From contig NW_008805072.1 of the NCBI RefSeq assembly GCF_000004825.1, positions 124,001 through 188,000 on the forward strand: a stretch of 64,000 nt of DNA, written 5' to 3'. Source of the stretch: Heterostelium album PN500 (taxonomy: Eukaryota > Evosea > Eumycetozoa > Acytosteliales > Acytosteliaceae). Under the pieces are notes generated by a model. The model saw only the letters and a list, made by a program, of their open reading frames with translations. It did no database searches and was not told the origin of the DNA. The translations under genes were made by a program, and so were the position numbers. The stretch's first letter is position 1. Each line of letters starts with the position of its first letter. Positions 27,300 to 51,932 of the stretch are shown here, piece by piece.

Positions 27300-30298
27300 A
27301 TGAATATAGATTTAATCGATAAAACAATTAACGGAAGAAATGTCTTGAAAATAATTCTTGACTGGTTTGATAGATTTATAGTTTTAATTTATAACCATTC
27401 GAAAGATAAAGATAATGAACAACACAGAAATATCATATTAATTAGATTTATTAGTAGAAATGAAAATGAAATTGTAATACCAGATACAGTCGATACTCAA
27501 TATCAATTAATAATAATAAGAAAAAAATATACCAGAATGTTTATATATACAAAGTCATTAAACAAATCACAATCATACACTATCACTCCTATTGAAATTA
27601 TACCCAATACAAACAAACACAATCTTGACTATTTTCAACAAACACATGTCATTAAAAAAAAACGATATCATTCAATATCAAGATTTCCAAACAGTAATGC
27701 TATCAATGATGTATATTTAGTGGGTGGCACTGATCAAAGATTGGTAAGATCATTTTTCAAAGTAATTAATCAATTGACAATCATAAAACTAACAAAATCA
27801 ATTCAAAAGTTTGTTTATAAAAAGATAAACTATAAAGATAACCAGAAATCTTATGAAAGAGCTGAGAATGAAATCAAAGCAATGAAATTACTCAAAGATA
27901 ATCCAAGATTTGTTCAACTTGTTGACTATCATCATGATAAAGACAATCAAATCTTTCATATCATCACTAAATATTGTGATGGTGGTGATCTTTCTCAAAA
28001 GTATCAACATTTAACTGATCAAAATGAGTATGAATATCGAGAGTTAAAGAAATATCATACAACTAACCACTTTATATTCAAATAGAACCTTTCAAGAATC
28101 AGATATTAGTTCATATATTTCACAACTTTTCAATATTCTTTTGGATCTTGATAAACATGGAATTGTTCATTGTGACATTAAACCATCAAACATATTCATT
28201 GATGATAATTATAATAGTACTTTGATGCTTGGTGATTTTGGATGTTGCAAATTCATTGATAAATCGAATATCGCTGAATATCAAGATACAAAACAATACC
28301 TTCTTGAAACAAATGATTATAATATGAAATGTATCGATCATGAAATATCATATCCATCCATTTTTGAAATGAACACACTTATAAATGCAACTCGTGGATC
28401 ACCTGGTTATATTTCACCAGTAAGTAAATTCTATCTAGTTTAATCTTTAATATTAAATATAACTTTATTCAAATAATAATACAAATAGGAAGCAATGAAC
28501 AGACAATATGCACAATCATGTGACATCTTTTCAATTGGATCAACAATTCTCAAATTATTATGTTGGTAAATACTCGAATAATCATTTTTAAAATATTATT
28601 ATCAATCAGATATTAACTCTGTATTTTTGAATATTTAAATTGATCAGTCATCAAGATGATCGAAATAATCATGATCTATTTAAATCAAATAGTGAAATTA
28701 TCATTTCACATTCCAGATATTCAAAACAATTGATTGATTTTATTCATCGATTGTTGGATCGAAGTCCAAAGAATAGAGAATCATTGAATCAATTATTAAA
28801 CCAATATATTGAAACTGTCACAAATAATCATTCAATTACATTTAATTTAGATACTACATTCCAAAATACCTCTGTCTATGTTACTGATATTAAATTTGGT
28901 GACAAATTTAATCAACCATTGAAATCTAATTCACTCCCTCCAAATCTTACATCATTATCATTTGGTAATAAATTCGACCAACCACTTATTGATGTACCTC
29001 CATATTCATTCAAAAAATTAATATTGCATCGATTTTTCAATCAAATACGACCAAAAGGTGTGTTACCAGAATCACTGAAATCATTGGTGTTTGGAAAAGA
29101 ATTCAATCAAAAATTATCAGTTGGTGTGTTACCAGAATCACTTGAATTATTGGTGTTTGGTAATGAATTCAATCAAATATTATCAGTCGGTATGTTACCT
29201 AAATCACTGAAATCATTGGTGTTTGGATATGGATTCAATCAAATATTATCAGTCGGTGTATTACCAAAATCACTTGAATCATTGGAGTTTGGATATAAAT
29301 TCAATCAAATATTATCAGTTGGTGTATTACCTAAATCACTGAAATCATTGGTGTTTGGAGTTGTTTTCAATCAAATATTATCAGTTGGTGTGTTACCTGA
29401 ATCACTGGAATCATTGGTGTTTGGATATGGATTCAATCAAAAATTATCAGTCGGTGTGTTACCTGAATCACTGAAATCATTGGTATTTGGTGGATTCAAT
29501 CAAATATTATCAGTTGGTGTATTACCTGAATCACTTGAATCATTGGTGTTTGGAGGTGCACTCAATCAAATATTATCAGTTGGTGTGTTACCTGAATCAC
29601 TGAAATCATTGGTGTTTGGTGTTGAATTCAATCAAATATTATCAGTCGGTGTGTTACCTGAATCACTTGAATCATTGGTGTTTGGAAATGAATTCAATCA
29701 AATACTATCAGTTGGTGTGTTACCTAAATCACTGAAATCATTGGAGTTTGGTTGGGAATTCAATCAAATATTATCAGTTGGTGTGTTACCTGAATCACTT
29801 GAATCATTAACAATGATGAGATATGCTCATAGAATGGAGAGAGGAGTTCTACCACAACAAATAAAAGAGATATGTTGCAATTTTAATCAACCATTGGATA
29901 TTGGAGTTCTTCCATCATCTCTTCAAAGAATAGATATTCTAGACTTAAGGCGTAAATCAAATGAAGTTCAAATATTAAAATTAATTCAACCACTCATCAT
30001 TGGTATTTATGATAAAGACGTGATGCAAAGAATACCTTCAAATATAAAAACAATCAAAATTACAGTTGGCTCTAAAACTACAATATTTGAAGCATTTATA
30101 CTCACAAATTCTCATGAATCACTTCAATTTATTCAAGAATTCAATCCAGAATATTATTCAACACAGATCAAGTACTCCTCTTTTAATTCTTCGATCAATC
30201 AAATTTCAGGAGAATACATATTTGGCCTAATTTTAACCGATAAGTCCTATTTAAATTCAAATTTGATAGATATTTATCCTTCTTCACCCAACAAGTAA
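27300..30298 (+). CDS. FNIP-repeat protein kinase, intact copy 2
   Basis: Exons 27300..27743, 27810..28027, 28086..28419, 28489..28565 and 28648..30298 join in frame to 907 residues. Residues 1-148 are the family N-terminal region (NEQHRNIILI, IPDTVDTQYQLIII). The VAIK-type lysine is near 152, the catalytic HCD at 249-251, DFG at 271-273 and the APE-like SPE across the exon 3/4 junction. The C-lobe ends near residue 400. About fourteen FNIP repeats follow, then a less regular tail ending DIYPSSPNK. Intron 1 is exactly 66 nt and open, so an unspliced reading adds 22 residues between the P-loop strand and the lysine; splicing restores canonical kinase spacing. The HRD arginine is Cys (non-RD). 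It is very similar in nucleotide sequence to copy 1, indicating recent duplication or conversion. Confidence 0.9.
29035..29820 (+). repeat. FNIP repeat array, 66-nt units (one 63-nt unit)
   Basis: About twelve tandem near-identical units of 22 residues (FNQILSVGVLPESLESLVFG type) lie in exon 5 of the kinase gene. One unit near 29490 is one codon shorter. Degenerate units flank the array on both sides (FNQPLKSNSLPPNLTSLSFG upstream, FNQPLDIGVLPSSLQRI downstream), so only the core has been homogenised. Confidence 0.9.
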
Positions 30299-30477
30299 TA
30301 CCAAATCATTAAATATTTAATATTTAATATTATTTTTTCAATAAAATTTTCAATCAAATTCAACCCCCTTCCTTATGCCATCGATCATTTATTTCAATGT
30401 TTTTAATTTGTTTTTGTTTCACATTATTAAAATTAAGATCAGATTTAATCAATGAGTATATAATATATATATATCGA

Positions 30478-32461
30478 ATGAAGAGTGCAATAAAGAGAAA
30501 CTTTTTGAAATTCACAGGTCGTTTGGGTTTCAATAGAGGTCAGATCAGTGGTAATAATGTTCCTGATGAACCTGAAGTGATAGGTCCTGATCTACCAAAA
30601 GAGAATCTACCTAAAGAACCTGTAGAGTTTGAAAGAGATGAATTCGATCATCGAATACAATTGTTTAGATCTTATCTGGTATCATTATCATTGACTGCTG
30701 TCAAAGATGAAATCAACAATGAGACTACCACAACAACCAATAACAATAATAATATATCTAATAGTGCAAGCAATACAAGTATAGTAAAGAGCAACAGTGC
30801 AAGCAATAGTAGTTTCAACCTTTCCAACATATATATACCAAATGATTTGATTCATGCAATCTTTTGTACACTCATATCCAACTCTAACATGTTAATCGAT
30901 ACATCTCATATAAACAATAATAATAATAATAATAACCGTATCTATCATCGTCAACCAATAGAAAAACAAAGTAATTGCAGTATTCTATCAAAGGTATGTA
31001 TCAACTATTATCTATAGACATGTTTTTAACTAATAACCAATTATTAACTTATTAAATTAATTAATCAAAGGCAATTCCTATTATGAGTGGTTTAAGTTGT
31101 GCTTATATAAGTTGTACGAATACAACAACACCAGAAGAGTTGGTGCAACAGTTATTTCTTCAGATTCCTTCGGATGCTGCCACCACAGCTGCCTTGATGT
31201 TAAAGAATAACAAGAGATTGAATAATATCAACAACAGTAATAATAGCAACAATTATAATTGTGGAAGTAACAACAGCAGCAATAATAATTTAGAACAATC
31301 TTTATCTTTAACAAAGTCATTAGAGACACCACCTCTCACACGATCACGTAACGAATCGGTCGGATCGTCAAGTTCACAACAGAATCAAAACTCAGCAAAC
31401 ACAAGACAAAGAACAGAAGCCAACTATAAGATGGTAGATATACTACTTGTCGATGACATCGATATTGCACCAATGCCAACTCGTTATACATTACTGCAAA
31501 TGATGACATACCGCAAGGTTGCATTCAAAGGTATCACCTACAACACACCTTCATCTCTCAGTATCATCGCAACAGCATCATCTCTCTCCAATCCAAACAT
31601 AATTTCACCAACAATCGAACCATTATCACCATTAATGGTAAGTAATCGATAACAATAACAACTAATTAATATACTAATAATTAAACTACTTGTCTTTTAC
31701 AGTTAGATTGTTTCTTTATAAATATTAGATTATATGAACAACTTAGATTACCACAGATAAAGTTGGAAACAGATCCTTTGATATCAACACCAGAATCTCA
31801 CTATATAGTTACACCATCACGTTTACACAATCTTCGTCAACTCTTACCAAAGATATATATTACACATGACATTGAACAATATATGAGAACCATCATTGTA
31901 AATCTAAGAAATCATCCACTTGTCACATTCGGTCCTTCACCACGTGCCACGCCAACACTGACATCAGCATCCAAGATAGTTGGCATGCTCTCTGGTCAGA
32001 AGTTTGTTACTCCCACACACATCTTGATGATTGCAGCACAGGTATTGAATCACAGAATCTTCCTATCGAATCCATTCCCTTTGGAACACCAACAACACAG
32101 CCCACGCGATGATGATCCACTTCAGAACTCTCCATCAGGCTCACCCAATTCTGGAACACCATCGATCAACGTCAACAACGATAGCAATGCATCGTACCAC
32201 AACGATCCATTCTCATCTAGCTCTTCGATTCCAACCAGCATGAAAATTCAGAAACCAACACTATCGATCCTTTCACAAGCAACTCTACTACCACCTCCAC
32301 CCATCTCAATCGTCGACACCAGTGCCGATCTAAACATAAAGAGTAGTGTTGAACTTAGCCAAATGAAACGATCGACTCTAAGCAACCAGGAGTTTGAAAG
32401 AGATTTCGATTCATTCAGTGTAATAAAGATTATTTTGGAGAACTTGGCACCTCCTCTTTAA
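30478..32461 (+). CDS. MoxR-type AAA protein with the P-loop replaced by an Asn run
   Basis: Exons 30478..30993, 31071..31637 and 31703..32461 join in frame to 613 residues; an upstream ATG at 30397 would add 27 residues. NDLIHAIFCTLISNSNMLID resembles the MoxR helix and strand that lead to the Walker A loop, but a run of Asn follows where GxxGKT is expected. SGLSCAYISCTNTTTPEELV matches the next MoxR strand. A Walker B-like MVDILLVDDIDIAP lies near residue 293, a sensor-1-like SLSIIATASS near 335, and the lid helix region IIVNLRNHPLVTFGPSPRAT with SGQKFVTPTHILMIAAQVLN near 420-470. Long Asn/Ser inserts interrupt the core. It is probably a non-ATP-binding or weakly binding scaffold member of the family; the function is unknown. 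Confidence 0.82.
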
Positions 32462-32715
32462 AACAAAACAATTAATATTAAAAACCAAACAAGAACCAAA
32501 TAAATAAAACTAAACAGATAAATTGTATATAAATGATGATTAAAAAAGAAAGAAACACTTTATATCATACTTGAATATGTTAGTCTCACAGTCGATAAAA
32601 TTTATAATCTTTTTATTTTGTTAATTTAAAGACATTTGTTTTTTTTTTTTTTTTTTTTTTTTTCTTTTATATATATAATACTATATGGTATAAATCTATA
32701 GGTCTTCTTTTTCTT
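32462..32715. other. Convergent 3' ends with a long T-run
   Basis: Spacer between two convergent genes, with a T-run of about 24 at 32640-32663 that may serve as poly(A) or termination sequence for both. Confidence 0.6.
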
Positions 32716-34051
32716 TTAATCGGAATCAGAATCAGAGTCATCTTCCCACTCTTTCTTTTTCTTTTTATCGGTGACAACTTTCTCACCGTCGGCCCACGAT
32801 CTAACTTCCATACCCTTTGGTGGTGCACCCTTTACAGTCTTCTTTGCTACGTCCTCCCAGTTGGTCGAGAGAACAGTACCTCCAGACTCAACGAATGATT
32901 TCATCATTGCACGTTGTTGCTCTTCCGATCCCTTTGAGAAAATATCTTGGAATACACGATTCAATGGATCACCCTCTTTGTCTTCACCGGCATCAATCTT
33001 GTCCCAATTCTTGTTGGTTTGGTATGGTGATACCAATGGTTTTGGTGCTGGTGTATCGATAGTTCCAACTGGTCCCTCCTTACCGGTGAACTCGAGATTA
33101 TCCCATCTGATAGCTCTTGATTTCTTTAAAACGATCTCAACCTTTGTACTATAGAATTTAGTTGTGCTCTCTGCTGGAACAACTGGGTCAAAGAAATCGA
33201 TATCAAAACTGTATTCACTACCTGTTGCCATTGCAAATGAAATATTAATCTAGAAATAGAATAAAGAAAGTTAGTTCTATAGAACAATGCTGAATGATAA
33301 TCAAGCTTATCAGATTTAAGAAAAAACAAACTTACAGATTTATCTTTAATCTCAATATTAGAGTTTTCTTTTGTTACAAACTTGGCAAAGATTGTCAAGG
33401 TTACGTGTGTTCCAGTTTGATACCATTCATGTCTAACCTTGGTACCTGATGATGGTACTGGTAATTGTGGTTTAGCTGGTGCTGCTGGTGTAGTGGTTGT
33501 TGGTGTTGGTGTGATGGTTGTTGCAGCTGCTGGTGTAGCAGTAGTAGTGGTAGTTGGTTTAGCAGCAACTGGTGCAGCTGGTGTTGGAGTTGGTACTGGT
33601 GCTGGTTGGCTTTGTTCCAACTCTGCCTTTGTCTTTCTAACCCATGTCTTTAATTGAGAATTCTCTGGTTCCAATGCCAAACCTTTTTCAAATACACTCA
33701 AAGCTGTATCATACTCTTCCAATTCGAAACAATATTGACTGTTTTTGTATTGTTTGATAGTTATATAAATAAGAGATCAGTTTCAATAACTATACCTGTT
33801 ATGCTAATATATATTTGTATTACTTACCCTTTCTTTAAATAACTCTTTGGGTTGTTTGGTTCTAATTTAATACAGTTGTTGATATCTTGAAGTGCATCAT
33901 TGATCGAGTCTAACTTTTGATGACATTGAGAACGTCTGAAGAATGCCTCAAATGAATTGGGCAACTCAGTACATGCTTTATTGTAGTGAGTCAAAGCATC
34001 TTCGTAGTTCTCATCAACAAACAATGAATTTCCTTTGTTTAATTCCTCCAT
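32716..34051 (-). CDS. sugt1: SGT1 homologue (TPR, CS and SGS domains), HSP90 co-chaperone
   Basis: Exons 34051..33828, 33738..33336 and 33249..32716 join in frame to 386 residues. Residues 1-110 are three TPR units (NKGNSLFVDENYEDALTHYN, QDINNCIKLEPNNPKSYLKK, EEYDTALSVFEKGLALEPEN). A Pro/Thr/Ala-rich linker leads to a CS domain (VRHEWYQTGTHVTLTIFAKF, with SYDIDFF-like and KVEIVLKKS strands). The SGS domain closes the protein (NWDKIDAGEDKEGDPLNRVF, SFVESGGTVLSTNWEDVAKK). SGT1 binds SKP1 and HSP90 and acts in SCF ligase, kinetochore and immune-receptor assembly. The length agrees with the family. It may work with the F-box proteins nearby, although physical linkage here need not mean a functional link. 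Confidence 0.95.
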
Positions 34052-34407
34052 TCTACTTTTTATTAATCTAATATTATATAAATAATAACTAAACAACAAC
34101 AACAAATGAAATTAACAAATGTTTTGAGGAATATCAAAGATTGGAAAAAAGTTTTAAAAAAAAAAAAACTAAAAATTCTTCAGAATTTCAAGTAAATTTA
34201 CTTGTGATTTCAAGTTCATATTAATTAATATCTACAAAGAAACAATAAATGATGTATGTGAACTAATGAGAAAATAAGTAAGTAAACTTGATTTTAAAAT
34301 TAAATTATGATCTTGATTTTGTATTTGCAAAAGATAATTTAAATTAAATGGGTTTAAGACGAGGAGCATTATTTATTTCTTTTTTGATCAATAAAAAACT
34401 AGACCGT

Positions 34408-35324
34408 TTAGATGGCAGCCTTGAGTAACTTTCCGTAGTCCTTGAGATGACCATGGTTGGTGATCAATTTAACGTTGGCACCGTCGTTGATGACACGACC
34501 ATCGGCCTTGAGTTGCTTGTATTCCTCACGGTCGTAGGTGGTGAAACCCCACTTCTTGGAGACGACGATCTTTTGACGACCTGGGAATTTGTATGAGGAA
34601 CGACGGAAGGCCTCAATGACGTGAGCAGACATGTTGTCCTTGCAACGGATGGAGAAAATGATTTGACCAATGTTGACACGAGCAACAGTACCCATTGGCT
34701 TACCGTAGGCACCTCTCATACCAGTTTGGAGACGATCTGCACCGGCACACGACAACATCTTGTTGATACGGAGAACGTGCCATGGGTGAACACGGACACG
34801 CATGTGGAAGGAGTCCTTACCACCCATCTTGGTGATGTACTTGTTACATGAGATACGACCAGCTTCCAAAGCTTCAGAGGACAATTGTTCGTATTCCAAT
34901 GAGATCAAATGAGCACAGAATGGGAATTCATCTGGGGATGCCTTCTTACGACCCAAATCGTAAATTCTGATCTTGGCATCTGGAACACCACGACAGTATC
35001 TTGACTTGATGTATGGCTTATTCTTACAATATCTGTAACTATTATTGTTGTTAATGTTAGTTTCTTTCTTCTAATCTCAAAGTATCAAAATCATCTTATG
35101 TTTATTCAATCCTTCTTTCGTAACTATTTCAATTCAACTTTACAATCCTCAATGTTTATCCAATCCTAATCAATCTCTATTATCTATTGTTTTGTTATTG
35201 TTTGTGTTTGATATTTACCATCTAGCTGGACCTATAGTTTTTGAATGTTGATAGATTGATTGGGATGTTAATATGATAAACGATATAGATAGGTATAATT
35301 ATAGATATACTTACGTCTACCCAT
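34408..35324 (-). CDS. rpl10: 60S ribosomal protein L10 (uL16)
   Basis: Exons 35324..35315, 35231..35219 and 35038..34408 join in frame to 217 residues: [20 protein letters not shown] and onward, with the family motifs [35 protein letters not shown] and the long loop [21 protein letters not shown]10 joins the large subunit last, near the P-site, and is needed for subunit joining. The first two coding exons are only 10 and 13 nt, a strongly fragmented start that simple gene finders would miss. Codon use is clearly biased to C-ending codons, as expected for a very highly expressed gene. Confidence 0.97.
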
Positions 35325-36051
35325 TTTGAGAGGATTGTTAAATTACTGAGGAAATAATATTGACGCTCTGAAGAGAGGATATAGTGTGTGAGTGGATGAG
35401 ATTAGGGTTAGGCAGACAGGCGAGGAGAGCGTAACCACAAAAAATTTTGAAAAATCTATAAAAATTAAAAAAAATGAAAATTTGTGTTTGAAAAGTGAAC
35501 TTTAGTTTTTTTGTTTTTATGTCTTGATTTGTTGTGTGTTATTTACAATCAAAAAAATTAAAATTGTGTTTGGTAAGATAAAAAAAATTTGACGCTGTTT
35601 AAATAGTTTTGAAAAACATTCTCCAAAAAGAATAACATTCTTTCGCAATCATATTATTCATGAAGCATTTATTCTTTTAAAGAACAACATAATATAATAT
35701 AAATAATTAACTGGTGGTTAACATTCTTTTTTTGTTTTTTTTTTGGATTTATTTTATTTATTTTTAATTAATGTGTTAAGAAAGCGATTTAATTTTAATT
35801 TATTTATCTATTAGATTTAATTTAGTTTTCAAAATTACATCGATTAATTATCTTGGGAAAATAGAAGGAATATTCAATCAATTAGTATTTAAAATTAGAT
35901 CTTCTAATCCGATCTAAAACGAATTTTAATTATTTATATTTTACGTAAAAGTTTGTTTTGTTTTATTTGTTATGTGTTTTGTTTAATTACATTAATGAGT
36001 GAGTTGATTGATTTATTATATACTTTGTTTTGTGTTTTGTTGTTTGTTTTG
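35325..36051. other. Intergenic, promoter side of rpl10
   Basis: The first 100 bases upstream of the rpl10 start are unusually G/C-rich (a GGTTAGGCAGACAGGCGAGG-like stretch at 35404-35425), probably promoter or leader. The rest, to the stop of the nitrilase gene, is A/T-rich without a frame. Confidence 0.5.
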
Positions 36052-37249
36052 TTAGATTTTGAAGGTTGTTGTTAATTTCTTTTGTTGATAAACTGGGATG
36101 TTTGTTCTCATTTCTTTGACTTTGGCAAGTTCAATGTTGGCGTAGATGATGGTTGGATCGTGTTCGGTGGTGGATACAATGTCACCCCATGGCGAGACAA
36201 CGGTGGAATGTCCCCAAGCTGTGTAGGTGGATTTTGGGTTTCTAGCGGGTGATACGGCAGCTACGTATACCTGGTTGTCAACGGCACGACCACGTTGCAG
36301 CAGTTCCCAGTGTGCCGGGCCAGTCGTCATATTGAAGGCACCGGGATACACGAGGATTTGACAACCCTCTTTGGCATAGAGCATAGCGAGCTCCGGGAAT
36401 CTAATGTCATAGCAGATACCGACGCCAAGCCTTACGCCATCACCCAACTCAATGATCGTCGGTGTTTCGCCTGGCGACAAAATCTCGCTCTCACGGAATG
36501 TAATCTTGCCTGGCACATTGATATCGAACAAGTGAATCTTTCGGTGTTTTCCAACTAGTTCACCGCTTGGATTGAAGATGAAACTGCAATTGTATATCTT
36601 TCCGTCGTCTCCACGTTCTGGAATCGATCCACCAATCAACCAAATCTTCAAACGCTTAGCTGCGTCCGCCAACATGGTAGTAGTCGGTCCACCAAACTTC
36701 TCAGCATACTCATTGAAAACTGATGTACTATACGGACAATTGAAGCATTCCTAAACAATCACATTGAACAACAACAACAATAGAAAAAGTAATCAATAAA
36801 CAAAGAAATATAAAGAAAGGAAAGATAGACTAGACTAGACATACAGGTAAACATATTATATTAGCACCGTTAGATGCAGCCTCTTCAATTGCTTTGCGAG
36901 CGGCTTCTATATTTTGATTTTTGTCTTCGCCAACCAGCAGTTGTATACCGGCAAACTTGTAGATTTTATCACTGTTGAACTCATTCATTTTGTGTTCTAT
37001 ATCGATGGGTCTGTTTCTAGGTCTGATATTAAACGAAGAGCTACTACTGTTACTATTTTTATTAGAACTGAAATATCGTTGTTGTTGTATTTGACTATTT
37101 ATAGAGCTAGATAATATTGATTTTGATATTGATAGGTTAGGAAATTGCTGATATGAACCCGATAATGAACAACCTCGATTCAGTAAATGAGAATAAGATA
37201 TTCTTGATGTTGTTGTTGCTGTTGTAAGTCTAACACCACTTAAAAACAT
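36052..37249 (-). CDS. nit2: NIT2-type omega-amidase (nitrilase superfamily), probably mitochondrial
   Basis: Exons 37249..36845 and 36750..36052 join in frame to 367 residues. The first 80 residues are rich in Arg, Ser and Thr ([20 protein letters not shown]) with no homology to NIT2, fitting a mitochondrial presequence. The nitrilase catalytic triad is visible: Glu in [16 protein letters not shown], Lys in [14 protein letters not shown] and Cys in [16 protein letters not shown]. The family hydrolyses alpha-ketoglutaramate and alpha-ketosuccinamate to keto acids and ammonia, closing the glutamine transaminase route. The single GT..AG intron falls just before the catalytic Glu. Confidence 0.95.
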
Positions 37250-39023
37250 ATTAATTATATATCAATATCACCTATTTTGTATAATTTTAATGATGTTCAT
37301 AAAAAAAATCAATTTTTGTTTTTATTTTTTTGGTTTGGCTTTTTTTCATTTTTTTTATTTTTAGTTGCAAAATGCCCAAAGGTTATATAATCTATGGCGA
37401 ACATCAATCAATCAATCAATCAATCAACCTGAGGCATAGAGTTTTAGAGTTTAAGTAACGATTAAAGAATGAACGTGAATCATTTCATAATAGTCTTTAA
37501 ATAGAGTATAATAATTAGGAGTGATGATTTTTTTTTTTTGATTTACATCATTTCTAGTTGTTATCATTTTTTTTTTTGGTTCTATTTGCAATGTTGTTAG
37601 TAATAATAATTACCATATCAATGTTTTGGGTTTTATTTTTCTTGTTTGACCAAAACCAAAACAAGTAAAAAACAAATTAAAATAAATTAAATATTGTTTT
37701 TGTAATTTATTATAATTGATATTATTTTGTTATAAGGTAACATTATACGAATGTTTTATTTAAATAAAATGAAAACGATGATTTACTGTTCTTATTCGTC
37801 ATCTACTAAAAACTAAATAGTAGTTGTCGTCCCAATGGCCATTAAATTAATGGATCACTGATACCAAAAGGATATAAAATCATTTACTATAAAAGGTAAA
37901 ATTTAAATTAATACCTTTTATGGTAAAAACATAAAACGAAATTAAACCATTCAATGAGTTGGGTTGTTGGCCTACAACCTTTTTTTTGATATGGGTTGAC
38001 CTTTTGCTTTGAATGAATGATTCACCCACATACCCACAATCACAGAAAAAAACACACACAGACTAATAAATTAATATTAAATTTTTAATATTGTTGGTCA
38101 CAACGTTCACACTTGCAAAAACTCAAAATAAAATAAAAATCAAAAAACAACAAAATTGTAAGGATCTGATTTTGGGGGAGAATGGGGCATGAGTTGATTT
38201 CACCACAATATTTGATTATCGAGATTTTTACTTTAAAAGGTAATTTCGAGGATCTCCCTCAAATGATTGAGGAGTTGCGTTTACTCTATTTTCAACACAT
38301 TCCTCACAACAATGAATATTATCAAACAACAACACCTTAACATCAAGAATCAATTAAATATAAAAAAATAAAAAAAATAAATTAAAATAAAACTCTCTAT
38401 TTATTTTCTTTAAAAGAGAGCTGAATATTCAGCTCCAACAACCACACACAAAAACAAACACACCAAAAAGCACACTGGAATACATACACATAGATAGAGA
38501 GACTTTGTTTTTATTTTGTTTTCACACATAACCACTAAACAACTTCAATTCATTAAAAATTATTGCTGTTGTGTTGTTTTTTTTCTCTTTACCTTGATTT
38601 TGTTATTTTAAACAAAACAACCAAACTAGGTACATAAATTTTGAATGATATCATTCATTTCAAGTTCAAAAGCAATATCTGTTTTTTTTTATCAACACCA
38701 ACTACTACTTCTTCTTCTTCCTAGCAGTACTAGTCAAAAATCATTTCTTCATTTTTTGTTTTTAAAATAAATAAATTAAACAGCCTACCAACAACAGCAA
38801 TATTTCCTTTTTAAAAACAATCCTTTTTCAAAACTTGTACAAAAAAAAAACATTAAAAAAAACAATTATATATTTAAAACTAAAAAGAAAAAGGTTTTAT
38901 ATTTTAAACACTATTTTAACCAAATATATACATATAAATATAAATATAATATTTCCTTTTTTTAAAAACAATCCTTTTTTGTTTTTAGTAAAATTTGTTT
39001 TTGTTTTTTTTGTTTTTTCGATT
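37250..39023. other. Divergent intergenic region with long A/C-rich leader of the next gene
   Basis: From about 37.98 kb the plus strand becomes A/C-rich (ACACACACAGAC, CAACAACCACACACAAAAAC), typical of leaders in this genome, and runs into the start at 39024. A perfect 18-nt palindrome lies at 38418..38435 and a tandem CAAT run near 37408-37430. The frame is open upstream of 39024 to an ATG at 38835, but those 63 residues are A/T-driven and are not taken as protein. Confidence 0.5.
38418..38435. repeat. Perfect 18-nt palindrome
   Basis: GAGCTGAATATTCAGCTC equals its own reverse complement. It lies about 590 bases upstream of the F-box/LRR start, inside the presumed leader or promoter. It could be a dimer-binding site or a small hairpin. 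Confidence 0.6.
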
Positions 39024-40895: not shown

Positions 40896-41122
40896 ATTAA
40901 CTAAACTAATCTAAACAAAACAATTTTGTTTTCTTTTAATATATTATATCCATCTGGATTTAAATATTATTGATTTGATTGAATTTAATTTATTTAATTA
41001 AATCCAATCTTTCTTTCTTTCTTTTTTTGTTTTATTTATTTAAATTACTTTTTTATTTAAACAAAAAACAAAAAAAAGCTATGTGATGTTGATTATAAAT
41101 AATAATAATTATAATCTTTTTA

Positions 41123-43339
41123 CTAGTCGTCATCGCTAATTACTATACAATCATCGTCATCGTCTTGATTTGAATTATTGTGTACTGCTATATGATTACT
41201 GCTATTTCCATTGCTGGCACTGTGATTTGTAGAGTTGGTATTTACATTTGGAGTGGCGTGTGAACCTGTACCGTTGGCTTGTATCGGTGCACCTTCCACA
41301 CCTGAAAAGTCGAATTCGTCTTCTTCATCCTCATCGAAATCATAGTCGTTGTCGGATGCGTCAGTGTTGACCGGTGGCGTTGGAGTCATCATCGAATCCA
41401 CATCAAAGACAACACCATTGTCCGCATCAATATTATTATTATTATCATCGGTTGTTTGTGAATTTATTATATCTGTATATTCTGTTTTTTCTTCTTTTGT
41501 TTTTTCTGATTTAATTTCTGAGGAAAAATCATATTAGTAATCAGAATCCGAATTTCGGACACAATAAGCAAATCAAAATAAAACCAACATACGTATTGCA
41601 GTTTCAGTTTTTACACTCCATGATCCATCTTGTTGAATTGTAAAGTTTGCTATGCCATCGGGTAGTTCCTTGATGATCGCTGCGGTATATTTATCGTAGA
41701 CTAACATGTCGGCGGAGCCAGCACAGTTGCAAACTGGACAATTCCAAATCTGTTGCTGAAAAGAGTACTGAAGATAAAACTTTAAATCGAAACACTGCAG
41801 ATGCGTGCAATTCCTTGTTCGAACAGGACATGATAATTTTATAAAACTAAGTGGACATCGTATTGAAATATCATAAGACAACTCCTCTATATCGCTATCT
41901 TTCTTTTTCAGTGCTATCAATCCTTTAAAATCTAAACTTTCTTTTTTAATAATCTTTTCCAAAATCTAGACATTATCATTATTATAATAATAGACAAAAC
42001 CAAATGTAATGTTTAGTTAATAAAAAAGTTTGAACAAAAATCAATTCAATATCATCTCTTTAAATACAAACATTTTTAATTGGTATATTTTTAACAAACT
42101 GTATTACTAAAACACCCTCTGTTCTGGCGGGAGCAGAGAATACTATTTTGTTTCTATCTTTTTTCACAAATGAAGTTATGTCCAATGGCTTTGGAATGAT
42201 GAGTGGTGTACATCCCGATGGATTTCTAAGTTTATATGGCTATATGAAATATGATATGATGGATATGGATATTAATGAATATGATATTACTATGACGATG
42301 ATGATGATGATGATGATAATTAGATCTATTTACCAATGCTATAAAATTATCGTTGATCGAGAGTTTCATATCACTTGAATAAGTTAAATTGGTTGAGTTT
42401 TGAATTAAACGAAGATGCAGGAAGTACTGTGTTTCGTCAGAGTCTGGAGGTGGTGCTTTCGCTGTGATTTTGGTGAATGTGTCGTTGTCGATATTGAATT
42501 CCTGGTGGCCTGTCGAGCCCTTTACAATCGCATAGTGATAGAGAACCTTGACCGATTCATAGAGAATCGATTGTTTCTCGCCAAACGATGTCCAATCGAT
42601 GTTCGCCGGTTTGGCGAGAGGCGCACTCTTTCGCGCGTTCTGCACGGTTCGCTGTTGAATGACTGGTGGCGGCACTATATGTTGCGGTGCGTTGAGCGGC
42701 GGACCACCAGGAAATGCAAACGTACTGGGAAATACTATGGTCGGTGTTGTTGTCGTTGTAGTCGATGTAACTACTCTGTTGCTGTTGTTGATCCCGTTTG
42801 TTGTTGGATGTGTTGTTGTTGTTGTCATATGTTGAATTCCTATGCCTGGCGGCGGTCGATTCACTGTGAGATTGTTCGGGTTGTTTATGTGCGGTGGATT
42901 GATCTGACCGATTCGAAACTGTGCACCCGGTTGATATTGCATGTTGTGATTCTGCTGGTAAACGGGTGGAGCCGGTTGGTTATGGTGTATTGCCCTATAG
43001 ACTCTCTCTACCAACATCGATTTGTTGCCAGACAACGTTATATTATTGTTCTTTGTCTTCAAGTACTTTAGTATCTTCTTGAGATGATCTACATGTAGTC
43101 TATTAAGAGTCTCTACGCTATTATCAAGTAAGTTAGTCATAGTACTATTATTATAATACATAAAGATAGATAGATAGATAGATGATGATAATATCTTGTT
43201 GTTTCATCTCATCATTGTTTTTAATGACATACCTTCTTAATCTGTCTCTTAAGTCAGATGAACTAATAGCTAATAGGTCTCGTATCTTCTCGAAATCATC
43301 ACCACTGAGAACGCCAACAGATGTTGAGGCAGCAGACAT
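41123..43339 (-). CDS. pias: PIAS/Siz-type SUMO E3 ligase
   Basis: Exons 43339..43233, 43144..42334, 42239..42072, 41965..41593 and 41517..41123 join in frame to 617 residues. A SAP domain (DHLKKILKYLKTKNNNITLS, GNKSMLVERVYRAI) lies near residues 45-95, followed by a Pro/Gln/Thr-rich linker. A PINIT domain begins at WTSFGEKQSILYESVKVLYH and crosses two exons. The SP-RING follows (IRCPLSFIKLSCPVRTRNCT, HLQCFDLKF, IWNCPVCN). The acidic C-terminus ends in DDDDDCIVISDDD, a SUMO-interacting motif. PIAS proteins transfer SUMO from UBC9 to nuclear targets. All five domains are in the family's usual order. The intron 3 donor (GTTTGT) is weak but is the only one that keeps frame. Confidence 0.92.
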
Positions 43340-43828
43340 TCTTAATAAAACCAATAATCTTTCCTTGTTTAGTTTGTTGTTGTTGTTGTCGTTTTAAATA
43401 TTGATGTGCTGCCTTCTGTTGTTGTATTATATACTCTTTGTATCTATCTATCTATCTATCGAATAGATAAAATCTAACTAACTAACTAACTAACTATCAA
43501 ACAAACCTGTGTAAAAAGAATGAATGGATGGATGAAAAAAAAAAAAAAACAAACAATTTTAAATCTTTGTTTAAACCACCATATATTATTTGTTTGTACT
43601 ACTATTAAATGTGTATCTGAATTATTATAAGAAGAGGAGGAATGAATATGTAGATATAGATATAAAAGTATATATAAAGCGTTTGTTTTCTATTTTATTT
43701 TTTTAATTTTATTTTGCAAAATAAATTTATTTTTTGATAGTATAGATACTTTTAACTAACTAAATAGATTCATCAAAGAACAACAATTTTATCTATTCTA
43801 TTGATAGTTGTGTATTAATATTATATTT

Positions 43829-43865
<37 letters not shown>

Positions 43866-44778
43866 GAATTATTATTTTTTTTTTTTTTAACAGTTTTTTT
43901 TTTTTTTTTTTTTTTTTCAAGTGGTAAATACAACTTATAGAATTGTATAGAATGAATTAAAAAGGTATCGAGGAATTGATGATAATGGTCTTTTTGAATG
44001 ATTGATTTTCATGTAATCATATTTTAAATCAGAAGAGACAATAAATAACTAAATTTAGAACAATGCAAGTACATATTTTGTATGGCGCCAATTTTTTTCT
44101 CAATCGATTTCTTTTATTTATAGTACTATAAATAAAATAAATAAACTTTCATCTTTTAAATAAGTTTATTCATAAAATTAATTATTTTTTATTTCAATTT
44201 CCGACTCTTTATTAATTAAATAAATATATATAAAAAATATCTATAATGGAAATAAATATTCCATAATGTGTTGTTTATATCCGTTGGAACGAAACTTTCC
44301 AATTCAAATAGGACTTCCAACGCGTTTTATAACTGTCTCTTCAAATTTTTTTGTTTTATTTTTTTGCAAAAAACACAAATTGGGCTTTTTTTTTTTTTTT
44401 TTTTTTACCAAAAGAATTTTTTGGGCAGTGACATCAAAGGTGGTTACTACACCATAGATCCTCAAGATGGAATGATATATTAGACATGGCATTGCTAATG
44501 ATAAATTTTATTGATATTTTTTTTGTTGATATTTTTCAAACAATTGTCAATTTGAAACCTTTTTATTTCAATCTTTAATTTGAATAATTTTAATCTTAAT
44601 AAATAAAATAAAATAATAACAGATAATAACAGATAATCAAAGTAATAATCAATAAATTAAATTAATAGATAAACAATTAAAGATATATATAGTAGATATA
44701 TAATTAAATTTGTAGTACAATAAAATATTTAGTGTAATAATATAATATAGAAATAGTTTGAAAATTTTAGAATAAAAT
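43340..44778. other. Divergent spacer with microsatellites and long T-runs
   Basis: This holds tetranucleotide runs (ATCT near 43441-43462, AACT near 43476-43497) and three long T-runs at about 43830-43859, 43873-43888 and 43894-43917. Frames of 60-70 codons near 44266-44492 occur on both strands, are driven by a T-run and carry no recognisable protein. Confidence 0.6.
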
Positions 44779-46722
44779 ATGGTAAAATCAATTGTTAGAG
44801 GAAAAAGAGTTATTTTCAATGGTAGTGTTAAGGAAGCAACTATTGTTGTTGATGACGGTGTAGTTGTTGATATTCTACCTTATGAACATGGATTGCCAGC
44901 TGGATCTTACAAGACGTTGGTCGATGCTCCAGATAATCAAGTGGTGATGGGTGGACTTGTAGATAGCCACGTTCATGTCAATGAACCGGGTAGAACGGAA
45001 TGGGAGGGTTTTGTCACTGCCACTTCGGCTGCTGCTGCCGGTGGTGTCACAACCATTGTCGACATGCCACTGAATAGCGATCCCGTGACAACATCGTTCG
45101 CCGCCCTCCAATCAAAGATCTCGTCGATGAGCGGAAAATGTTTTGTCGATGTTGGACTGCTCGGTGGAATCATCCCAAACAACGAAGATCAAATAAAGAG
45201 AATGATTTTGGAGGGTGGAGTCGTTGGATTCAAGTGTTTCCTCGTGCATTCCGGTATCGATGATTTCCCTGCGGTCGAACGTGAACATGTTGATCGTGCA
45301 ATGAAAGTGATGGCCGAGTTGAAGCACGTTGGAAAGGATGTGGTTGTTATGTTCCACGCTGAAGTGCCGGGTCCGATTGACGACGCCATTGCCAAGCTCG
45401 AAGACGACTGCGACACCGGTGACTATCACACTTTCCTGAGTAGTCGTCCCAAGGCATCGGAGAACGAAGCAATCGACATGGTGATCTCACTCACCAGAGA
45501 AAACAATGTGCGCACTCACATCGTCCATTTGTCATCGGCAGAAGCACTGCCAATGATTCGCGCTGCCCACACTGACAACATTCCAATTTCGGCGGAAACC
45601 ACTTTCCACTATCTCTATTTCGAAGCGGAAAAGGTTCCTCACGGAAATACTCTCTATAAATGTTGTCCACCCATCAGAGAATCGTTGAATAGAGATGCAC
45701 TATGGCAAGCTGTATCGGATCGTACTGTCTCCATGATTATCTCTGACCATTCGCCATGCACAGTAAATCTAAAGTTGTTGGAGGATGGTGATTTCATGAA
45801 GGCATGGGGTGGAATTTCATCGTTGCAACTCGGATTGAGCATCATTTGGACTGAAGCGAAACGACGTGGAATTCTCTCGCTTACCGACCTGCCAGAACTG
45901 ATGTCCGATGCTCCAGCGAAACTAGTGAATTTGAACGATAGAAAAGGATCGATTGCCGTTGGAAGAGATGCAGATTTCTTAGTTTGGGATCCAGAAGCAT
46001 CGTTTACAGTGGATCAAGAGAAGATGTACGTTAGAAACAGAGCGTCGCCATACCATGGACAAACTCTCTACGGTGTCGTCGAACAGACTATCTTGAGAGG
46101 CAGAGAAATCTACTCAAAGCGCAACGGACACATCGAAATTTTCACAGGTGAGCGTCTCACCCCAACCAACATCCAATCTTCGAGCAGCGGATATGCCGAT
46201 ATCCGTCTGCCACCGATTGCCAGATTGAACAGCCAGCTTAGCGACACCGACTTTTTGAGTGTTGTCAATATGCTGTTGGAAGTGGCACCACCATTAGCCA
46301 GTGGACTACTTGCAGCCAGACCATACTCTAGCTACGATCAGCTCATCGAAACAGTGGTCGCTATCATCGAACAATGTACAACAGAACAAAAGGTAGAGAT
46401 TATCAATTCACATCCAAAGATCGGTGCAAATCCATCAAAGATTTCAACACTCTCTTACTATGAGCAAGGATATCACAGAGAATCACATCCAGACAAAGAT
46501 CCAGAGCAACAGAGAATCTTGGAAGCACTGAACTCACTCAACAACGAATATCAACAGAAATATGGATTTTCATTTATCGTTTTTGTAAATGGCCGAACAA
46601 AAGCTGAAATCATTCCAATTATTCAGCAACGTCTACATCATTCCACCAAAGAACAAGAGTTGGCAACTGGTTTATCTGAATATATTGAAATTGCAAAATC
46701 AAGATTAAATAAACTTTTATAA
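44779..46722 (+). CDS. allB: Allantoinase fused to OHCU decarboxylase
   Basis: A single exon encodes 647 residues. Residues 1-455 are a cyclic amidohydrolase of the allantoinase type, with metal ligands in VDSHVHVNEPGRTEWEGF, the carbamylated-Lys motif VGFKCFLVHSG, VVMFHAE, RTHIVHLSSAEA and SDHSPC. From about residue 485 a second domain begins (LSDTDFLSVVNMLLEVAPPL) with the OHCU-decarboxylase signature EIINSHPKIGA and the helix YQQKYGFSFIVFVNGRT. In urate breakdown OHCU decarboxylase makes S-allantoin and allantoinase opens it to allantoate, so the fused enzymes catalyse consecutive steps. All visible catalytic residues are present. Codon use is C-rich, suggesting strong expression. The product is probably cytosolic or peroxisomal; the C-terminus (LNKLL) is not a clear PTS1. 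Confidence 0.95.
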   Translation: MVKSIVRGKRVIFNGSVKEATIVVDDGVVVDILPYEHGLPAGSYKTLVDAPDNQVVMGGLVDSHVHVNEPGRTEWEGFVTATSAAAAGGVTTIVDMPLNSDPVTTSFAALQSKISSMSGKCFVDVGLLGGIIPNNEDQIKRMILEGGVVGFKCFLVHSGIDDFPAVEREHVDRAMKVMAELKHVGKDVVVMFHAEVPGPIDDAIAKLEDDCDTGDYHTFLSSRPKASENEAIDMVISLTRENNVRTHIVHLSSAEALPMIRAAHTDNIPISAETTFHYLYFEAEKVPHGNTLYKCCPPIRESLNRDALWQAVSDRTVSMIISDHSPCTVNLKLLEDGDFMKAWGGISSLQLGLSIIWTEAKRRGILSLTDLPELMSDAPAKLVNLNDRKGSIAVGRDADFLVWDPEASFTVDQEKMYVRNRASPYHGQTLYGVVEQTILRGREIYSKRNGHIEIFTGERLTPTNIQSSSSGYADIRLPPIARLNSQLSDTDFLSVVNMLLEVAPPLASGLLAARPYSSYDQLIETVVAIIEQCTTEQKVEIINSHPKIGANPSKISTLSYYEQGYHRESHPDKDPEQQRILEALNSLNNEYQQKYGFSFIVFVNGRTKAEIIPIIQQRLHHSTKEQELATGLSEYIEIAKSRLNKLL

Positions 46723-47097
46723 ATATAAATATAATATATAATTTAATATATAGTATAATATAATCGGATCGAATTGATCATTATTTTTCTTCATTTCAAA
46801 AGATTATTAATCACAAATCTTTAATAAAAATTAATAAAATTAAAAAATAAATAATTATATTTTTATGTGAATATGATAATGTTTTTCGCAAGTTTCTAAG
46901 ATGAAAGAAATTGCAAACTAATTAGTTATTAAAAATTTAATTTTTTTATCATTCATATAATTTGTTATCATTATTTTATTTTTGTTATTAATTTATTATA
47001 TAGATTTATAACTTTTTAGATTTTGTTTTTTTTTGTTATTTTTTTATAATTTTGTTTATTATCATCATATATCATATATATATATTAGTTTATAAAG
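46723..47097. other. A/T-rich intergenic DNA
   Basis: Spacer between the fused allantoinase and VTA1 genes, both on the plus strand, made of A/T-rich sequence with no frame. Confidence 0.7.
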
Positions 47098-49035
47098 ATG
47101 GATAATATACCTGTACAGTTGAAACCGATTTCACCATTCATCAAGCAAGCTAAGCAATTAGAGAAACATGACTTGATCATGTCTTACTATTGTAAGCTTT
47201 ATGCTCTACAGCTGGCTGTCGACATAAAGAAGAAGCTGGGTCCTGCTGGTAGTTCTCTGAGTACTTTTATCGTAAAGATTTTGGATCTAGCAGAGAATGT
47301 ATGTTTATAAATCAAATCAAGTCAGATACATTGCATCTTTTTGAGTATCTATATTAATAGAGTTCGAATTCGATTCACACACATATAAATAGGATAAAAA
47401 GAAGATAGGTGCTCAACTAGATGAAGAAGGAATGGAATTAGACTATGTAGAAGGTTTTGCAATGAGAGCATTCAATCATGCCGATTCTGAAGATAGAGCT
47501 GGTGTTGCAACAAAGTAAGAGAGAGAGAGAGAAAGAGAGAGTAACAGATTGTTACATAGACTTATTAAAAACTAACCTTTTTATATCATTAATTTAGAGC
47601 AACAGCTACTACATTCTACTCTTGCTATTTGTTCTTTGATGTAATGAAACAGTTTGGTGAATTACCAGAGGAAGTTAAACAGAAGCAAAAGTATGCAGGT
47701 TGGAGAGCAGCCGAGATTAATACTGCCATCAAGAATGGTGTACAACCAACTCCACCACCTACACTTGTATGTCGATGTCTCAATATTCAATTCTATTGTT
47801 TTATTCTGCACATTTGTTTTGTTTAGTAACTAATATTATTTTGATTTGCTTGATTTTAGGAGGAAGAAGATGGAGGTGCTGATGATTTAGAGGATGGTAG
47901 TAATCAAGAGTCATCAAATCAAGATTCATCGTTCCCTGCATTCCCATCAACACCACAATCCAACCAATTTCCAAGTTTCCCTTCGACCGTCGATAGCAAT
48001 CCATCATTCCCATCGTTCCCAAGGGCTGGAGGTGACAATCAATCACCACCATCATTCCCATCTTTCAACAATAGCAATGTAGGTGATACGCAATCACCAT
48101 CTTTCCCATCGTTCCCAAAGGCAGGTGGAAACGATCAACCATCATTCCCATCATTCCCAAAGGCTGGCGGAAACGATCAACCCTCATTCCCATCGTTCCC
48201 AAAGGCAGGTGGAAACGATCAACCCTCATTCCCATCATTCCCAAATGCCGGAAGAAACGACCAGTCATCATTCCCATCGTTCCCAAATGCCGGTGGAAAC
48301 GACCAGCCATCATTCCCTTCATTCCCAAAGGCAGGTGGTAATGACCAACCCTCATTCCCCTCTTTCCCAAAGGCAGGTGACGATCAACCTTCATTCCCTT
48401 CATTCCCCAAAGCAGGTGGTAATGACCAGCCATCGTTCCCATCTTTCCCAAAGTCAGGTAGTAATGATCAATCATCGCTAAACAGATCGAGTGATCACCA
48501 ACAACCATCATTCCCAACCTTTAATAAGCAAGAACCATCACCACCACCATACCAACAAGACATTTATTCTCCACACCAAACACAATCACCTCCAAATAAC
48601 AGAAGAGACTTTGACCAGCAATCTTCTCATCATCAACAACCACCACAACAATATCAACAACACCAGCAGCAACAACAATCGCCACCAAGCTATCAACAGC
48701 ATCAACAGCAACCACAACAACACCAGCAACAACAACATCCACAACAAAAACAACAACCACCGCAACAGCAACAACAACATCAGCAACAGCAACAATATCA
48801 ACAACCACAACAACAGCCACAACAATATCAACAATACAACCAACAACAACAACAGCAACAACAACAAAATTATGGATCAATGAATAAGGCATATACACCA
48901 TCGGAAGAAGACATCGCCAATGCCTCTAAATATGCCAAATGGGTTATCAGTTCTCTCAATTTCGACGATGTAAACACTGCAATCAAAAACTTGAAGTTAT
49001 CATATAAACATCTGACTGGAATTGATTTAAATTAA
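47098..49035 (+). CDS. vta1: VTA1/LIP5, activator of the VPS4 ATPase (ESCRT-III disassembly)
   Basis: Exons 47098..47298, 47393..47514, 47598..47766 and 47860..49035 join in frame to 555 residues. Residues 1-160 are the paired MIT-like domain (PISPFIKQAKQLEKHDLIMS, YYCKLYALQLAVDIKKK, TTFYSCYLFFDVMKQFGELP, KQKYAGWRAAEI). A long linker contains a PSFPSFPKAGGNDQ tandem array and a Gln/His-rich stretch. The last 45 residues are the Vta1 C-terminal domain (EEDIANASKYAKWVISSLNF, DDVNTAIKNLKLS), which binds VPS4. The protein recycles ESCRT-III at endosomes. The linker makes it much longer than yeast Vta1 (330 residues). Confidence 0.95.
48090..48475 (+). repeat. Tandem 42-nt coding repeat in the VTA1 linker
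   Basis: About nine units of 14 residues (PSFPSFPKAGGNDQ, variants NAGRNDQ, KSGSNDQ and a shortened KAGDDQ) are tandemly arranged. Wobble positions vary between units, so the array is not brand new. Shorter FPSFP motifs precede it from 47935. Confidence 0.9.
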
Positions 49036-49321
49036 ATTAATAAATTTGTAATCGATATTTTCTAAAATTACATCAGATTGTGTATGTATGATGAGTGATT
49101 AGGCACAAGCATATTATTGTCTTTCCTACTGATTGAACTTAAACTCAATTTATTTATTCTTATTGTACATAGGTTATCAGACTAAATTATTGTTGAGTGG
49201 TTATCTAATTGTGATACACCAAAATAATCTTTTAGTTTTTTTATAAATTTAAATTAATTAAAAAAAAAAAAGTGTTTATGATTAACTAATTATTGTTAAT
49301 TTGATTTCATAATTTTTATTC

Positions 49322-51932
49322 TTAATTTTTAATTAATGTAACAAGTAGAGCGGTGATATATTCTCCTTGAAGTGGAGAGGTTAATTCTAAGTAATGAGAC
49401 GAAAAATATACTGGATAGAATTCTTGAATATATTTAAGTGATTCAATAGAATTTGTAAGAATAGATGCTTCATATTTATGTCCTCCACCAAGATCAATTT
49501 CGAGAGTCTTTAGAAATTTTCTTTTTTTAATCTCTAATTCATTATATCCACTTATTATGAGTGATTCAATAGATGTGGGTATCAATTCAAAAATTCCATT
49601 TGTGTTGCTAGATTGTTTAGAATTGTCATGACAAAAAAACATTATTCTTTTTAGAGATGAAGGGAGAACACCAATGCTAATGTGTTGACCTTCTGAACCA
49701 AATCGTAAATCTTCAAGAGTTTGTGGTAATACTCCAATATCCAAAGGTTGTCTTAATTTTGTGAATGTTAAAGATCTAATTTGATTTGAAAAGGTTCCAA
49801 TATCCAATGTTTGATTAAACGATCCAAAATATAAATTTTCGAGATTATTAGGTAGAACATCTCTATCAATTCTAAGATTGTATCCCATCATTTTTAATGA
49901 TTTTAGTGATTCAGGAAACACTCCCTTTGATAATAATAGATTGAATCTATCTCCAAGCACCAATGATAAGAGTGATTTAGGTAACACACCAACTGATAAT
50001 ATTTGATTGAATCCATTTCCAGAAAACAATGATTTCAATTTTACAGGTAATTCACCGACTGATAACACTTGATTGAATGCATCCCCAAATGATAATGATA
50101 AAAGAGAATTGGGTAGCACTCCTATTTCCAGTTTTTGATTGAAATAGTAACCAAATGATAAATATTTGAGTGATTTTGGGAGCACATCAATAAGTATTGG
50201 TTGATTGAAATAATGTCCAAATGATAATGTAATAATATTTGGAGGAAGAGAGTTTCTATTCAAATGTTGATTAAATTCTCTACCAAAATATAATTCAGTA
50301 ATATTTTTTGATGTATTATTGAAATCTGTATCCACATTGAAAGTAATAGTATATTCATTAGTGATGGCATCAATATATTTGTTTAGAAAACATTTCAATG
50401 ATTCTCTATTCTTTGATCTCTGATCCAACAATCGATTAACTAATTCAATCAATTGTTTTGAATATCTGCATTCTGAAATCTTAATTTCACCATTAGTTTG
50501 GAATAGTTGATGATTATTTCGATCTTCTTGATGACTGATCAATTTAAATATTCAAAAATACAGAGTTAATATCTGATTGATAATAATATTTTAAAAATGA
50601 TTATTCGAGTATTTACCAACATAATAATTTGAGAATCGTTGATCCAATTGAAAAAATATCACATGAATGTGCATATTGTTTGTTCATTGCTTCCTAATTG
50701 TATTATTATTTAAATAAAGTTATATTAATATTATTTGAATTTAGTTTTATTTAATAAATTATAAGAATTAATTCATTAATTTATATTATAATTTAACTTA
50801 CCGGTGAAATATAACCTTTAGTTCCTCTTATATATGGGTTTGAAATAATAGTTGGATATGATATATCAGTATTGTTATATTCCTTCCTAGTATCAAGATT
50901 ATTTTCTTTTGTATTTATATATTCAATGACAGGTAATTGGTCGATGAATAAACAGCTTCCAAAATCACCAAGTTTCAAAGAAAAATCATAATCAAATTCA
51001 TGAATAAATATATTTGATGGTTTGATATCACAATGAACAATTCCATGTTTATCAAGGTCCAAAAGAATATTGAAAAGTTGTGAGATATATTTCTTTAAAA
51101 CCAATTCATCAATGATTCTATTTGTATATTTAAAATAAAAGTAGTTTGTTAGCTTTTTAAAATAGTAAATTTAAAAACTGCTTATATGTACCTATCTTGT
51201 TCAGTTAAACGTTTTATTATATGAGAAAGATCCCCATCAAAACAATATTCAGTGATGATATGAAAGATTTGATTACCTTTGTCTTCTTGATAGTCAACAA
51301 GTTGAACAAATCTTTGATTTCCTTTAAATAATTTCATTGCTTTGATTTCATTCTCAGCACTTTCATAAGATTTCTGATTATCTTTATAGTTTATCTTTTT
51401 ATAAACATACTTTTGAATTGATTTTGTTAGTTTTATGATTGTCATTAATATCTTTGAAAAATGAACTTACCAATCTTTGATCATCAGTACCACCTACCAA
51501 ATATACATCATTGATAGCATTACTGTTTGTAAATCTTGATATTAAATGATATCGTTTGTTATTAATGACTTGTGTTTGTTGGAAATAGTTAATATCCTCT
51601 TGGAAGTCACTCTCTATTAAATTGATTTTATATGATTCTGATTTATTTAATATCTTAGTGGATATAGATATTTTATTTGTTTTAGTTGAGAAATATCTAC
51701 AATATCTAAGTATTATTAATTTATATTGATCATCAACTGTTTTTGGAACTATAATCTTATTTTCAATTTGATCAATCCCTCCAATTAATTTAATATTTCT
51801 AAGCTGTTCATTCTCTTTTTCTCTCAAATGATTATAAATTAAAATTGTTAATTTACCAAAGAAATATTGAAAACTAATCTCCAAGACTTTTTTTGATTCC
51901 TCTATTTCTATTTCTATATCTTTTATTTCCAT
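49322..51932 (-). CDS. FNIP-repeat protein kinase, intact copy 3 (divergent)
   Basis: Exons 51932..51471, 51409..51192, 51117..50802, 50693..50617 and 50534..49322 join in frame to 761 residues. The N-terminal region is more divergent (MEIKDIEIEIEESKKVLEIS) but keeps NEQLRNIKLI and RYHLISRFTNSNAINDVYLV. The kinase part has YVYKKINYKD, HCDIKPSNIF, LGDFGSCLF and GYISPEAMNKQYAHSCDIFS. The FNIP part contains about eleven divergent units (LPPNIITLSFG, IGVLPNSLLSLSFG, VGVLPKSLLSLVLG), unlike the homogenised arrays of the other two genes. Intron 1 is 61 nt, not a multiple of three, so the frame only joins after splicing. Catalytic residues are kept, again with HCD in place of HRD. Confidence 0.88.

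Follow-up and report, generated by a model that had tools for sequence, protein, structure and literature searches.

The window analysed here is a stretch of 64,000 nucleotides from Heterostelium album PN500 (contig NW_008805072.1, positions 124,001 to 188,000 of the forward strand). Its high AT content, small introns and FNIP repeats fit a dictyostelid related to Polysphondylium and Heterostelium. It carries members of a family of genes encoding kinases with FNIP repeats, three of which, genes A, B and C, were compared at their fourth intron. A sequence-only reading had called attention to this intron as identical in two paralogues with diverged exons; introns 2, 3 and 4 were located in the genes and keep the numbering of that reading. 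The features concerned are as follows.

27300..30298, plus strand: FNIP-kinase gene A (L014), beginning at the first ATG in frame with exon 2 and ending with the exon 5 stop (open reading frames, Pfam)
28489..28565, plus strand: exon 4 of gene A, 77 nt, near-uniform in the family (alignment of copies)
28566..28647, plus strand: intron 4 of gene A, haplotype '82a', GTAAATA ... TATTAAC ... CAG (genome search, haplotype alignment)
28649..29500, plus strand: the part of gene A exon 5 searched in Pfam, with the end of the kinase region and the first FNIP repeats, diverged among paralogues
28546..28656, plus strand: 111-nt tract shared with gene B, the best estimate of the conversion tract (comparison, runs test)
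50535..50616, minus strand: intron 4 of gene B (L013), the identical 82 nt (sequence comparison)
50526..50636, minus strand: 111-nt identical tract in gene B, the partner of the gene A tract (sequence comparison)
5957..6040, plus strand: intron 4 of gene C (L027), the 84-nt haplotype with an AC insertion (sequence comparison)

In gene A, Pfam searches of the exon pieces recovered a protein kinase domain in exon 3 (Pkinase, 3.4e-13; also ABC1 kinase-like, 1.1e-7), a kinase match in exon 2 under the curated cut-off (20.7 versus 23.1 bits) and FNIP repeats in exon 5 (4e-78). A kinase domain followed by FNIP repeats identifies gene A as an FNIP-repeat kinase, and the other copies were placed in the family by DNA similarity. 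Exon boundaries were predicted from splice signals and reading frame. Alignment of 17 distinct versions of intron 4 revealed a near-invariant GTAAATA start and an invariant TAYTAAC motif and terminal AG, and with the intron removed kinase exons 4 and 5 are in frame. TAYTAAC resembles the yeast branch point motif. Retention of the intron as coding sequence was considered and rejected, as a stop is met directly past exon 4 (TGG TAA). By these signals intron 4 is predicted to be an ordinary spliceosomal intron, of U2 type as far as its consensus goes.

Genes A and B carry the same nucleotide at all 82 positions of intron 4, as the sequence-only reading had stated. That reading described the gene C copy as differing by a small indel and a substitution; the indel is a 2-nt insertion (AC) after position 20, and there is no substitution. 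Its account of the flanking exons was accurate: exon 4 has 5 differences in 77 nt between genes A and B, all of them outside the 20 nt adjoining the intron, and exon 5 is much more different, with 30 differences in its first 168 nt. Identity between the two genes thus continues beyond the intron for 20 nt of exon 4 and 9 nt of exon 5, making up the 111-nt tract. If differences occurred at the rate of the flanks (0.162), 111 consecutive matches would be expected at any one position with a probability of approximately 3e-9, a figure that presumes the intron to diverge as fast as its flanks.

The 82-nt intron was then used as a DNA query against the 32.9-Mb assembly (39 contigs). This yielded 33 matches genome-wide, 10 of them at 100% over 82 nt: 31 lie behind an FNIP-kinase exon 4, another (L039) belongs to a truncated member of the family in which the intron end and exon 5 alone remain, and the last is in a gene for phosphoenolpyruvate carboxylase (PEPC). 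The 84-nt version accounts for another nine of the 31 family copies, which are identical to each other. Exon 4 as a query gave at least 36 matches and the beginning of exon 5 at least 39, and the eight places among them without an intron match were read individually. Four of these (L042−L045) have a partly or strongly diverged intron 4. Little besides splice and branch-like signals is left in L042 and L045, which keep a GTAAATA-like start (GTAATTA in L045) and TATTAAC and have lost much of the interior, while L043 lacks part of the first half. The remaining four have no comparable intron: L046 and L047 are fragments, L048 has an unrelated intron and L049 has no recognisable one. The FNIP-kinase family is expanded and mostly clustered, with clusters on contigs 11 and 35. 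The sequence-only reading had reasoned that divergence of intron 4 in most other members, in the manner of introns 2 and 3, would make the identity a chance conversion event; the outcome is mixed, with 31 recognisable copies set beside the four diverged ones and the four with nothing to compare.

Alignment, divergence, tree and runs analyses were carried out on 29 of the 33 matches, leaving aside L029 (N upstream), L039 (truncated), L040 (the PEPC intron) and L041. Among these 29 copies the mean difference per site was 0.038 for intron 4, compared with 0.275 for intron 2 and 0.282 for intron 3, while differences per silent site (pS) ranged from 0.081 to 0.153 depending on the exon. The expectation that introns drift faster than exons therefore holds for introns 2 and 3 in this family. 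In 375 of the 406 pairs intron 4 had diverged less than silent sites, and 172 pairs had zero substitutions in it (gaps excluded). The low-diversity stretch begins in exon 4, ends in exon 5 and covers approximately 160−180 nt. Exon 4 is itself near-uniform at the protein level (protein-changing differences, pN, 0.024), with a pS of 0.150 on approximately 16 silent sites that is not low. Since exon 4 is near-uniform as well, the feature is a block that includes it, rather than intron 4 alone. Exon 4 is the exception in this respect; in exons 2, 3 and 5, pN (0.07−0.13) is about equal to pS (0.08−0.15), which suggests that evolution of the kinase domain is relaxed or diversifying.

The distribution of intron haplotypes over the gene tree argues for exchange between paralogues. 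On a tree built from exons 2 and 3, the AC insertion takes seven changes for its eight carriers, the central variant of the intron takes six and a variant in exon 4 takes nine. Single clades were rejected both for the 84-nt carriers (approximately unbiased test, p-AU 1e-74, log-likelihood loss 178) and for the 82a carriers (p-AU 5e-78, loss 202), with haplotype groups that were named after the data had been seen. L013 and L021 form long branches in the exon tree and bear the common intron haplotypes 82a and 84. The 45 pairs that share the 82a haplotype have a pS of 0.050−0.230 elsewhere and a mean difference in intron 3 of 0.289. In a runs test on 531 polymorphic sites, with the longest run taken per pair and a 95% global threshold from 300 permutations, 72 of the 406 pairs exceeded the threshold, and in 19 of them the run overlaps intron 4; these 19 include L010 and L013, which scored 14.48 (p 0.0033), and the focal pair of genes A and B, which scored 12.71 against a threshold of 12.49. 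Two hallmarks of gene conversion are thus seen here: the phylogeny of the tract is discordant with that of its flanks, and the identical tract is longer than the polymorphic sites predict, for the focal pair by a small margin.

We consider it well supported that paralogues have exchanged blocks running from the end of exon 4 through intron 4 to the beginning of exon 5, which has left the same intron haplotype in genes whose other parts have diverged. Interlocus gene conversion is probably the best explanation of the uniform intron. The exchange would be non-reciprocal conversion, or in some pairs unequal crossing over, in tracts of perhaps 100−200 bp. It may recur at this place by virtue of the long near-identical stretch that exon 4 and intron 4 offer, and the AT-rich, indel-rich and divergent intron 3 alongside may bring pairing to a halt. 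Weak constraint would add to the similarity, at least on GTAAATA, the TAYTAAC branch-like motif and the 3' AG.

Several observations weigh against gene conversion as a full account. In the old clade, as defined from the exon tree, intron 4 differs at 0.097 and silent sites at 0.180, and the ratio of young diversity to old divergence, with the old set likewise taken from the exon tree, is 0.38 versus 0.57 (0.28 versus 0.52 with two long branches added to the set). A ratio of 0.19 versus 0.58 was discarded, because the old set had been picked partly by the intron, which is circular and overstated the extra homogenisation. The exon 2 and 3 tree has 4 starred branches among its 26 inner ones and is likely a mosaic itself, so that the counts of changes on it are not numbers of events. 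The focal pair passed the runs test narrowly, and the use of polymorphic sites lessens the effect of constraint on that test rather than abolishing it. Of the 29 polymorphic sites in intron 4, most appear to owe their variation to a small number of older copies, which lengthens the runs between the other copies. Finally, 53 of the 72 significant runs do not overlap intron 4. Exchange therefore takes place along the whole gene, and conversion alone leaves the peak uniformity of the block unexplained. Pairwise intron distances to the oldest copies (with no values for L037) were also dropped, because lenient gaps gave a mean mismatch of 0.188 (minimum 0.043) even between introns 3 and 4, which are unrelated.

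An intron that bears a functional element (a small RNA, a splicing regulator or a DNA signal) under purifying selection, with at most occasional conversion, would account for intron 4 evolving at about half the silent rate, old lineages included, and for the recurrence of its first 65 nt in an unrelated PEPC intron. However, constraint alone cannot scatter derived variants, such as the AC insertion and the TCTGT/GAGT blocks, over the gene tree; the intron has decayed in some older members (L042, L045 and L043); and no stable or conserved RNA fold was found. Folding of the intron on both strands gave z-scores of 0.28 and −0.05, near the shuffle mean, the consensus fold of the aligned introns had zero pairs and the window had no Rfam match at gathering scores. 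The stable or covarying fold or the Rfam match expected of a structured small RNA in an intron (small nucleolar or microRNA-like) was thus not seen, and we regard a functional element as unlikely. Between the two possibilities raised by the sequence-only reading, a functional element and a conversion tract, the latter gained support from tree discordance, from a tract that ends in both exons and, narrowly, from the runs test, while function gained no positive evidence.

Recent duplication of whole genes, with exons sped up by selection and the intron as the true clock, would fit the near equality of pN and pS in most exons, and gene families are known that combine conserved introns with fast-evolving exons. 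Silent sites nonetheless exceed intron 4 in most pairs, and divergence is far greater in introns 2 and 3; protein selection explains neither, which makes this scenario highly improbable. We attach equally little weight to an assembly artefact in which near-identical copies were collapsed or cross-joined. One copy, L029, does adjoin a run of N, into which 44 of the 77 nt of its exon 4 fall, but the copies bear diverged flanks at both sides, and the uniform block probably lies under the typical read length of the assembly. Gene conversion, with some constraint on the splice signals, stays our preferred reading of the block.

The single match in an unrelated gene is of interest in its own right:

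contig 6, 113185-113265, minus strand: last intron of the PEPC gene, L040 (genome search with the intron)

The gene was identified by Pfam (PEPcase, 5.7e-85). Its last intron is 83% identical to FNIP-kinase intron 4 over the first 65 nt, and 85% identical to the L037 version; the match begins at the 5' splice site and extends past the branch-like motif, with the final 16 nt unmatched. It scored 63.5 and 67.1 bits, compared with a best random score of 42.8 bits in two 33-Mb genomes generated from a fifth-order Markov model of the window. The PEPC intron is closer to older family versions than to the homogenised one, and has TTCAATA, ATTGATATTAAC and TCGTT in common with L037, L043 or L044. The intron read backwards gave no match in the genome. 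The preceding PEPC intron, which also has a TAYTAAC motif, matched nothing as a query beyond itself and a decayed fragment of its own gene. This fragment (L050, contig 6, approximately 105.7−105.9 kb) is a PEPC duplicate of approximately 180 nt that includes the penultimate intron and lies approximately 7.5 kb from the gene. An empty site for the last PEPC intron was sought in it, and the match ends short of that intron.

With the L044 intron as query, the genome search returned that intron alone, which indicates that such a search misses diverged relatives. Patterns of 22 nt (core) and 26 nt (intron start), both composed with the PEPC intron in view, were also searched for. With up to one mismatch the 22-nt pattern occurred at 31 sites, all of them known copies including PEPC; two mismatches added 19 sites, namely L044 and 18 outside the known copies, while the reversed pattern had five hits in all. 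These 18 may be other introns with a branch-like motif and a T-rich tract. The 26-nt pattern occurred at five sites, all known copies or PEPC, with zero control hits. Introner-like mobile introns are present as near-identical copies in many unrelated genes; here only one of the 33 matches lies in an unrelated gene, at 83%, although diverged relatives may exist, given that L044 was missed and 18 further pattern sites were found. It is a tentative suggestion, made from sequence similarity, that the intron 4 sequence moved as an intron between unrelated genes, by intron transposition and possibly reverse splicing, or that the two genes share a functional intron core. Alternatively, the likeness could reflect repair that copied in a patch of intron sequence.

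Tracts identical between diverged paralogues, haplotypes shuffled among them and discordant trees are also features of interlocus gene conversion and concerted evolution in multigene families, the subject of the review PMC3966226; the difference is that the most uniform tract here centres on a small exon and its intron, and the neighbouring introns are strongly diverged. The approximately 65 nt from the 5' splice site common to unrelated genes recall intron transposition and gain by reverse splicing, the topic of PMC3443670 and PMC3879977, whereas we have a single case, at 83−85% identity and with the last 16 nt unmatched. For Dictyostelium, conversion mediated by cDNA has been proposed to explain intron loss (PMC4683709), and gene conversion around introns in social amoebae is common to both systems. 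In that model spliced cDNA brings about the loss of introns; in the FNIP-kinase genes the exchanged tract contains the intron, so the donor would have to be DNA or unspliced RNA. No title or abstract opening among those searched gave an account of this intron or of a match between PEPC and FNIP-kinase introns.

Elsewhere in the window, a repeat scan picked out a 42-nt tandem coding-like repeat (PSFPSFPKAGGNDQ) at 48054-48470.

The PEPC intron provides a concrete and testable candidate for the movement of an intron between unrelated genes. For the FNIP-kinase family, our analysis indicates that exchange between paralogues, rather than function, can leave an intron better conserved than the exons around it, which calls for caution before conserved introns are declared functional.

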